Shown piece after piece: positions 61,238 to 64,000 of a stretch of 64,000 nucleotides of DNA. This stretch comes from an uncultured Latescibacterota bacterium. Lineage in GTDB: Bacteria; Latescibacterota; UBA2968. Location: assembly GCA_951812755.1 (NCBI GenBank), contig OX638329.1:2837339-2901338 (forward strand), written 5' to 3'. The first letter of the stretch is position 1, and every line of letters starts with the position of its first letter. The position numbers and the translations under genes were made by a program. A model generated the notes under the pieces. The model did no database searches. It was given only the letters and a program-made list of their open reading frames with translations, and was not told the DNA's origin.

Positions 61238-61543
61238 ATGAGTACCTTAATTGAGAAAATCCAAGCTATGGAGAATATTGGAGCAGGCTATCTCGCCCAC
61301 CAGGCACTGCAAAAATTGATTCATTTGCATTTGCAGAAATATGAAAAACAAATTGAAGAGGTCAAGAGAGATTTAAAACCCTTTGAGCGGCGGTATGGTA
61401 TGAGTTCTGAGGAATGCCACCGGCAATTTATGGCTGGAGAATTGGATGATGTAGCTGACTTTATGGAGTGGATGGGCCTTTATGACGATATGCAGCTTTA
61501 CAGGGAGCGAGTTAAAGCCTTACGTGCAGTGGTTGAAGAATGA
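61238..61543 (+). CDS. putative antitoxin partner of the TumE-type toxin
   Basis: This 101-aa, largely helical and charged protein (KYEKQIEEVKRDLKPFERRYGMSSEECHRQF, then FMEWMGLYDDMQLYRERVKAL) is probably a coiled coil. I cannot name its family with certainty. Its stop overlaps the start of the DUF6516/TumE-like gene as ATGA. The size, order and coupling are those of an antitoxin. ATG has TGGAGGG upstream. Confidence 0.65.
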   Translation: MSTLIEKIQAMENIGAGYLAHQALQKLIHLHLQKYEKQIEEVKRDLKPFERRYGMSSEECHRQFMAGELDDVADFMEWMGLYDDMQLYRERVKALRAVVEE

Positions 61544-61929
61544 TAGAGACGTACCTTCGGCAAATTGATGAACTCCTCAGCGCAAATCCACTTGTCAGCG
61601 AGGTACAGATTCTCAGACGATCTATTCGGGATACCGAACTGGAAAAGGTTCTGAATTACCGTTATCGTGTAACGTTGGCAGATGGTGGGTTTGTCGAGAT
61701 GACAGAACGAGTTCTGGAAGTACGGAGTAGCCTGGAAGTGACCAAATATCGTCATCACTGGCAGGCCAGCACCGGAAAATTGATCAAACGTTGGGATAAT
61801 GCCCCGCACCATCCTGAGATAGATACATTTCCCGATCATCTCCACGACGGAGCCGAGAACCAGGTTGTGAACCATGCACCGGTCAATGGCCTTGAAGTTT
61901 TAAGGCTTATTTTGGACGAACTCGAATAA
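61540..61929 (+). CDS. DUF6516/TumE-like toxin
   Basis: This 129-aa protein matches the DUF6516 pattern, annotated as TumE-family toxins: VLNYRYRVTLADGGFVEMTERVLE, then KYRHHWQASTGKLIKRWDNAPHHPEIDTFPDHLH. The His-rich middle may be catalytic. It is translated through a 4-base overlap with its putative antitoxin and followed by a strong terminator. Confidence 0.7.
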   Translation: MIETYLRQIDELLSANPLVSEVQILRRSIRDTELEKVLNYRYRVTLADGGFVEMTERVLEVRSSLEVTKYRHHWQASTGKLIKRWDNAPHHPEIDTFPDHLHDGAENQVVNHAPVNGLEVLRLILDELE

Positions 61930-62072: not shown

Positions 62073-62118
62073 GTTTTAGATGCATCAATAACCCCAATCT
62101 TCCAACAGGAGGTCAGAG

Positions 62119-63858
62119 ATGGACCGGGATACGATGAGCAATGAAGAGAACTATGCGTTTGATGTCGCCGGATATTTGCATGTTCCAGGGGTGTTGAGTC
62201 GGGGGGAAGTTGAGGCTTTGAACAGGGCACTGGACGAGGCGGGTGCGTCTGAAGGCATGCTGGGTTGGGAAGCACCCCAGCGGGATTTGTTTCGGGATTT
62301 GCTGGTGCATCCGCAACTGGTATGGTATTTGAATCAAATTATCGGACATGGGTTCCGACTGGATCAGGCACCCCGGTTGTTGGGGAGCCGGGAGGGGGAG
62401 ATTGGACAGGGTCTGGTTGGTGGAGATGAGCCTCGGAATCCGTCCCGGGCGTATTTTATTCAAAATGGTCGCCGCTCGTGCCAGGGGGTGAAGGCGATCT
62501 GGGTGCTGGAAGATGTGGAGGAGGGAGATGGCGGACCGGTGGTGGTTCAGGCGAGCCACAAGAGCAATGTGGAAACGCCCGAGGATTTGGTGACGGGGCA
62601 GGACGATATGGGGCTGGTGAGACAGCCAGTGTTGAAGGCGGGGGATTTGTTTTTGCTGGCTGAATCTACTTTGCAGGGGATGCGTCCGTGGACGGAGTCT
62701 CCGAAGCGGTTGTTGACATACTGGTATGCGGGGCGGGCAGTCATTCAGTCGAATGGACCGGGACCGGGTGCTGAGATTGAAACGCGACCCGAGTGGACGG
62801 AGAATGCGCCTCCCGAACAGAAGGCGGTGATGTACAGGCCGGGAGCTAAGGGATCTAATCCGCCACCGGTACTGAATACCGATGGCGAAAAGACGTGGGT
62901 GGAAGAGAGTTCTGAGGTGATTCATCCCTCGATTTATATTCGGGATCCAAATTCGAAGATTGATGAGAAGGAATTTTATTTTTGGGATTTGAACGGGTAT
63001 CTGGTGGTGCGCGGAGTGATGGACGGGGAATGGTTGGAAAAGGCGAATGAGGCGGTGGATAAATTTCAGGATCGGATTGAGGTCGGTGCAGAACTGGCGC
63101 GAGGGTCAAAGAGTCAGGCAGGGACGGGGCGGCCGTTATTGCCGGGTCTGGTGGATTTGCCCGCGCCTTATTGCGATCCGTTCCGGCGTATGATTGCCCA
63201 TCCTGCCGTGGTGCATCGCTTGAACTGGATGGGAGCCAGTGGGTATCGCACGGGTGGTGGTACGGTATTCTGTGCGGTTCAGGGCACATCGGGGCACTCT
63301 TTGCACGATGGGAATGAGCCGATGAGTCCGTCGCGGGGCTATCAGTTTAAGAATGGGCGGAGTTATTGCGAGACAGTGACGATTACGTGGCAGTTGCGGG
63401 ATGTAGAGCCGGATCTGGGCGGGTTTGCCTGTGTGCCTGGTTCTCATAAGACGCAGTATTCGATGCCGCCGGGAATCCGTACATGCGATGAGACGATGGG
63501 GTTGGTGGTGCAGCCAGCGATGAAAGCGGGCGATGTGTTATTTTTTATGGATGGCGGGTGTACACACGGCGCGCTGGCGTGGAAAAATCCGATTCCCAGG
63601 CGGGGTGTGCTGGTTAAATATCAGTCCAAAAATTCCAACTGGGGCGGTGGCGTGATCGATCCCCAGGAGCGCTGGGGCGATATGGTGGAAGATATGACCG
63701 AGGAACAGTTTGCAGTTATGCGCGGTCCCGAACGCGATGGATGGGATCGCACGGTGCCCAGGTTGGTAGTACACGATGGACAGGCGCATGTGTCGTACGA
63801 TCCAGAGGGCGACCGATATGCGGCTTCTTATCGGAAGCCTGGGGAAAAGTCGAGATAG
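62119..63858 (+). CDS. tandem PhyH-domain fusion; N-domain without iron ligands, C-domain HxG
   Basis: This 579-aa protein, about twice the usual PhyH length, contains two homologous domains (~1-205 and ~285-520). In the C-domain, H396-D-G398 occupies the proximal HxD site; H483 is the distal ligand and R494 the 2OG-type Arg. At aligned sites the N-domain has V100-G-G102 and Q186, so both His ligands are gone, while R197 remains. The N-domain is thus probably non-catalytic, perhaps regulatory or substrate-binding. Shared blocks such as EP.NPSRAYFIQNG / EPMSPSRGYQFKNG show common origin. ATG with AGGAGG; purN follows 14 nt after the stop. Confidence 0.85.
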   Translation: MDRDTMSNEENYAFDVAGYLHVPGVLSRGEVEALNRALDEAGASEGMLGWEAPQRDLFRDLLVHPQLVWYLNQIIGHGFRLDQAPRLLGSREGEIGQGLVGGDEPRNPSRAYFIQNGRRSCQGVKAIWVLEDVEEGDGGPVVVQASHKSNVETPEDLVTGQDDMGLVRQPVLKAGDLFLLAESTLQGMRPWTESPKRLLTYWYAGRAVIQSNGPGPGAEIETRPEWTENAPPEQKAVMYRPGAKGSNPPPVLNTDGEKTWVEESSEVIHPSIYIRDPNSKIDEKEFYFWDLNGYLVVRGVMDGEWLEKANEAVDKFQDRIEVGAELARGSKSQAGTGRPLLPGLVDLPAPYCDPFRRMIAHPAVVHRLNWMGASGYRTGGGTVFCAVQGTSGHSLHDGNEPMSPSRGYQFKNGRSYCETVTITWQLRDVEPDLGGFACVPGSHKTQYSMPPGIRTCDETMGLVVQPAMKAGDVLFFMDGGCTHGALAWKNPIPRRGVLVKYQSKNSNWGGGVIDPQERWGDMVEDMTEEQFAVMRGPERDGWDRTVPRLVVHDGQAHVSYDPEGDRYAASYRKPGEKSR

Positions 63859-63872
63859 GGAGGAATGGGAAA

Positions 63873-64000
63873 ATGCCGAGTAGAAGGGTCTTGCAACTGG
63901 GCTTTCTGGCTTCGCACAGAGGCACCAATATGCAGGCTATTCTCGACGCCTGCAAAACAGGACGATTGCAAGCGAGGCCCCGGGTGGTCATTAGCAATAA
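63873..64000 (+). CDS. purN: phosphoribosylglycinamide formyltransferase, N-terminal part
   Basis: The 42 visible residues (VLQLGFLASHRGTNMQAILDAC, then GRLQARPRVVISN) match the N-terminus of GAR transformylase PurN, which transfers formyl from 10-formyl-THF in purine synthesis. The gene runs off the window. ATG has GGGAGGA eight bases upstream, directly after the stop of the PhyH fusion gene, so it may be co-transcribed. Confidence 0.85.
   Translation, partial: MPSRRVLQLGFLASHRGTNMQAILDACKTGRLQARPRVVISN

Follow-up and report, generated by a model that had tools for sequence, protein, structure and literature searches.

An ancient loss of iron ligands in the first domain of a two-domain PhyH-family protein shared by Latescibacterota and Poribacteria

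The PhyH-family protein of 579 residues that is encoded at positions 62119..63858 (+ strand) of the window, i.e. the complete stretch of 64,000 nucleotides from an uncultured Latescibacterota bacterium that was analyzed, consists of two homologous domains, the first of which has lost the residues that should bind iron. This loss is ancient and fixed across two phyla rather than a recent decay, because 140 of 141 two-domain relatives do not have an N-domain with both His ligands. With moderate confidence, we consider the protein to be a 2-oxoglutarate/iron oxygenase in which the C-domain performs the chemistry, and in which the N-domain is a non-catalytic partner that descends from a formerly independent oxygenase belonging to that clade.

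The gene starts with an ATG at a position that its relatives share. In fact, a start of the form MDR..M(S/T)NEENY is common to the full-length relatives, and a likely ribosome-binding site (AGGAGGT; 62107..62113, +) can be read from the sequence. The N-terminal PhyH domain (residues 6-241; 62134..62841, +), non-catalytic by its lost iron ligands, is followed by a linker with an end hairpin (residues 242-280; 62842..62958, +; strands 252-254 and 259-261 in the AlphaFold model) and by the C-terminal PhyH domain (residues 281-538; 62959..63732, +), which has the complete pair of His ligands. The two halves had been called clearly homologous, and indeed residues 6-241 and 281-538 share 32% identity with a BLAST E-value of 4e-32. 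PhyH (PF05721) is the sole Pfam match of the protein, with 64.2 bits against a curated cut-off of 22. The AlphaFold model, for which an alignment of 40 sequences (A1) served as input, has a mean pLDDT of 86.5 and a pTM of 0.85, and comprises two complete beta-strand-rich domains in a confident mutual arrangement. A Foldseek search with the whole model recovered PhyH-type oxygenases of the double-stranded beta-helix fold as top matches (E 4.5e-15), and HygX ranked first both in this search and in the searches with sequence profiles of either half.

A comparison of the two halves, by self-alignment and in the family alignment, makes the difference between them explicit. V100 (62416..62418, +) aligns with the first iron-binding His of the C-domain, H396 (63304..63306, +), and Q186 (62674..62676, +), which is conserved as Gln, aligns with the second, H483 (63565..63567, +). 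Both His ligands are thus gone from the N-domain, as the earlier note had it, and its further reading that the Arg was kept also holds: R197 (62707..62709, +), the probable former 2-oxoglutarate Arg, lies 11 residues past Q186, aligns with R495 of the C-domain and with the Arg of HygX, and is retained in 115 of 121 aligned two-domain proteins. In the C-domain, the two His are invariant in all 141 proteins and the adjacent R494-R495 (63598..63603, +), one of which is the probable 2-oxoglutarate Arg, are invariant in 121; R494 has no counterpart in the N-domain. The presence of the two-His pair and of the 2-oxoglutarate Arg suggests that the C-domain is probably an active oxygenase. The carboxylate that is expected two residues past the first His (HxD/E) is absent, and the motif reads H396-D397-G398, in agreement with the HxG type assigned before. 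A candidate replacement is D478 (63550..63552, +), an acid five residues before H483 that is found in 107 of the 121 proteins; the position is occupied by Glu in many single-domain relatives and by Ala or Gly in the group of 505-residue proteins.

The age of the loss follows from its distribution. The aligned set comprised 121 two-domain proteins and was extended with deeper members to 141 distinct proteins from Latescibacterota and Poribacteria, many of them derived from metagenome-assembled genomes. The sampling beyond the phylum covered the best 78 loci of one scan, and two-domain relatives may also occur in other phyla. Only one of the 141 proteins has a His at position 100. At position 186, 103 proteins have Gln, 23 have His and 10 have Arg. 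Most N-domains therefore lack both ligands, and all lack at least one except that encoded at L059:295-1776 (- strand), a protein of 45% identity that has both and is a possible intermediate. The first His is thus missing throughout almost the entire family, and the second is missing in particular in the clade of 579-residue proteins. The suggestion that the Val and Gln substitutions might be fixed proved right for Gln (103 of 121 in the aligned set, and 94% of the 579-residue type) but not for Val, considering that column 100 varies freely, more so than 97% of the columns of the N-domain.

Five further full-length copies, with 61-66% identity to the window protein, are found in the same genome of 6.53 Mb. 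Orthologues of the window copy show 95-97% identity within the genus, 78-86% in other families and 77-82% in many records of Poribacteria, and these full-length orthologues from both phyla (77-97% identity) share the state of the N-domain. The Poribacteria orthologues (L079-L118) are closer to the window copy than are the paralogues from its own genome, which would reflect an early duplication or a transfer between the phyla. One of the two-domain paralogues (66% identity) is encoded at L001:9228-10991, some 3 kb downstream of the window gene, where a single-domain PhyH gene adjoins it on the opposite strand.

The trees bear on how the two domains came together. All N-domains form one clade and all C-domains another. 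The sister group of the C-domain consists of single-domain genes, termed S1 and S3, with a support of 100/99 and to the exclusion of the N-domain. Because of this placement, the protein is best described as a fusion of two paralogues; the same grouping rules out an internal duplication of one domain. The single-domain genes S1, S2 and S3 are found in tandem in the genome under study (L005:5338-8085; G000:C1, about 822.3-825.1 kb), in the same frame and separated by short gaps only. Read-through of the stops between these in-frame genes was ruled out, as every one of them has a separate start codon beyond the preceding stop. S2 retains the motifs LHGG and THG, and both His are present in every S2 copy that was aligned. 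Moreover, a C-type gene directly follows S2 in 13 of the fetched genomes, from three families, which is the order of the domains in the fused protein; the two genes stand as a pair in families f2 and f4. S2 and its C-type neighbour may encode a heteromeric oxygenase. S2 is also the single gene that most resembles the N-domain (mean identity 43% versus 36% to S1/S3). A quick tree joins the two (support 84), a careful tree places the N-domain just outside S2 with weak support, and in the AU test a joint clade was not rejected (p 0.34), so that S2 is likely to be the nearest kin of the N-domain.

These relations can be arranged in a sequence of events. The ancestral genes would have made a heteromer, which a gene fusion would then have fixed. 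The N-domain, freed from catalysis, would have lost the first His, and the second would have been lost later, in the main clade. The present role of the N-domain would be that of TlxI towards TlxJ, steadying the C-domain and lending loops to the substrate pocket of that domain; by analogy with that pair and with the fusion TalA, a contribution to both the formation of the pocket and the stability of the C-domain is the most likely role. That the N-domain probably still has a job is argued by the fact that relatives in two phyla keep the arrangement.

The pattern of selection is relevant to the nature of that job. The N-domain is under purifying selection that is looser than that on the C-domain: dN/dS is 0.10 versus 0.02 within the genus, and 0.12 versus 0.03 in the Poribacteria, where the ratio is rough since dS, at some 1.2-1.4, is near saturation. 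Because the N-specific residues Q73, R106, R119, V151, Q186 and R189 are found in 94-100% of 106 members, the domain looks repurposed rather than drifting. Indeed, R106, R119, R189 and Q186 are newly conserved within or close to the motifs of the lost metal site, in a pattern that is seen neither in the C-domain nor in S2 or S1/S3. Together with the retention of R197, this pattern could be taken to mean that the N-domain has a regulatory or a carrier function. Its former active site would then bind a small anion, possibly a sugar acid or, in the absence of metal, 2-oxoglutarate, and so control or feed the C-domain. We regard this as possible yet rather unlikely: the conserved polar residues could equally form the interface between the domains, and the N-domain has lost the equivalents of T421, F436, F476 and R494, which are common to all active-looking relatives. 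A related formulation, in which the first half of a fused heteromer would have become, with its newly fixed set of Gln and Arg, a site that binds a ligand without metal and controls or feeds the active half, is similarly unlikely. The earlier note had named allosteric control and a composite substrate pocket as what the fusion suggests, and either may apply.

The same data speak to a more modest role, namely that the N-domain would only stabilize or oligomerize the protein and have no contact with catalysis or substrate. The N-domain evolves some 4-5 times faster than the C-domain by dN/dS, column 100 is unconstrained, and TlxI also improved the expression of its partner (PMC11880133). Nevertheless, a purely structural domain would not easily account for near-invariant N-specific residues, nor for an arrangement that is fixed over two phyla and in six copies in this genome, and we judge such a role to be distinctly unlikely.

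The favoured reading, in which the C-domain carries the oxygenase chemistry, also has to be weighed against its being a halogenase with an HxG motif and no carboxylate. 2-oxoglutarate halogenases are characterized by an HxG/A motif, and position 398 is never Asp or Glu in the 141 proteins. However, it varies between Gly, Ala, Ser, Asn, Gln, Pro and Thr, and the acid is likewise missing from those single-domain relatives of the genome that were compared and from HygX, a protein of the hygromycin pathway, for which the structure paper reportedly described variation in metal coordination. Since these relatives also lack the acid, HxG is, judging from the alignments, a trait of the whole clade and uninformative on halogenation. 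The motif is therefore an ordinary one, without any special meaning, and a halogenase is very improbable. Finally, the gene might be pseudogenizing or chimeric, and its state confined to this genome or its assembly. The missing His alone would speak for this, and it is ruled out for practical purposes by the five full-length paralogues and the orthologues with the same N-domain state, and by the purifying selection on the N-domain.

The genomic context adds a weak hint about the substrate. The neighbouring genes include those for a sulfatase, Gfo/Idh/MocA oxidoreductases, ThuA, a dihydrodipicolinate-synthase-type protein and a D-2-hydroxyacid dehydrogenase, and in Poribacteria a pectate lyase. 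These glycan and sugar-acid related neighbours hint weakly at a carbohydrate-like substrate; no gene partner conserved across the phyla was found in the neighbourhoods in Latescibacterota and Poribacteria. In the window, a gene for a PurN-type formyltransferase (63874..64000, +) begins 15 bases beyond the stop of the PhyH gene, runs off the window and continues into L001. It is probably co-transcribed with the PhyH gene; the neighbour is seen in the genus and is not a conserved one in Poribacteria. Just upstream, at 61238-61929 (+), lies a pair of genes that is likely to be a toxin-antitoxin pair: the second matches the toxin TumE (PF20126, E 1.7e-21) and the first encodes a small protein with a weak likeness to DUF3782.

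The setting in which such proteins occur has been described in part. The Poribacteria show an expansion of phyH genes to more than 1.9% of all genes, mostly without known function (PMC3909097). That account concerns the same kind of organism and the same Pfam family, whereas two-domain proteins or lost iron sites do not figure in its passage on this expansion. The protein analyzed here provides a specific architecture that can be sought among the very numerous PhyH proteins of Poribacteria and Latescibacterota, the expansion of which is mostly unexplained. Moreover, a natural series is found within one bacterial group, from adjacent, active-looking single genes to fused proteins with both, one or no His in the N-domain, so that the conversion of an enzyme into a non-catalytic partner could be tested by expressing the members of the series.

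We found no literature on two-domain PhyH pseudo-oxygenases. The fusion of a pseudo-oxygenase to an active copy, which the earlier note had considered unusual, is indeed so, but it is not without close parallel. TalA of Talaromyces pinophilus is a natural fusion of TlxI-like and TlxJ-like non-heme iron oxygenases with a non-catalytic N-terminal and a catalytic C-terminal half, and thus shares with the bacterial protein the fold superfamily and the order of the halves (PMC12141560). The likeness shown is one of architecture rather than of close sequence kinship. TalA differs in that it belongs to a fungal meroterpenoid pathway, and in that its non-catalytic half is recognized by the loss of the 2-oxoglutarate Arg and a lid loop, as described for TlxI, and not by lost His. 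In the TlxI/TlxJ heterodimer (PDB 7VBQ), a non-catalytic oxygenase subunit is likewise needed for the full activity of the catalytic one: TlxI raises the kcat/Km of TlxJ from 0.02 to 1.63 per min per uM, supplying with its loop B' an element that substrate binding requires (PMC12141560). As in these systems, one half of the bacterial protein lacks catalytic residues that the other half keeps, and the profile of the N-domain weakly reaches TlxI (E 0.0025). However, TlxI and TlxJ are separate chains, and TlxI lacks the Arg, whereas the bacterial N-domain has the Arg and lacks the His. A partner domain without metal is known independently from OGFOD1/Tpa1, with two tightly packed double-stranded beta-helix domains of which one has no metal site (PMC4396695), although there the catalytic domain is N-terminal, the domains are only 12% identical and the family is that of the eukaryotic prolyl hydroxylases. 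HygX (PDB 4XC9, 4XCA, 4XCB and 4ZPI), the best solved relative of both domains in sequence and fold, likewise has an LHGG motif in which the customary acid is missing, but is a single-domain protein of the hygromycin B pathway with 18-25% identity. The fusion thus represents a bacterial form of an architecture that is already known, for which the evolutionary series is unusually complete.
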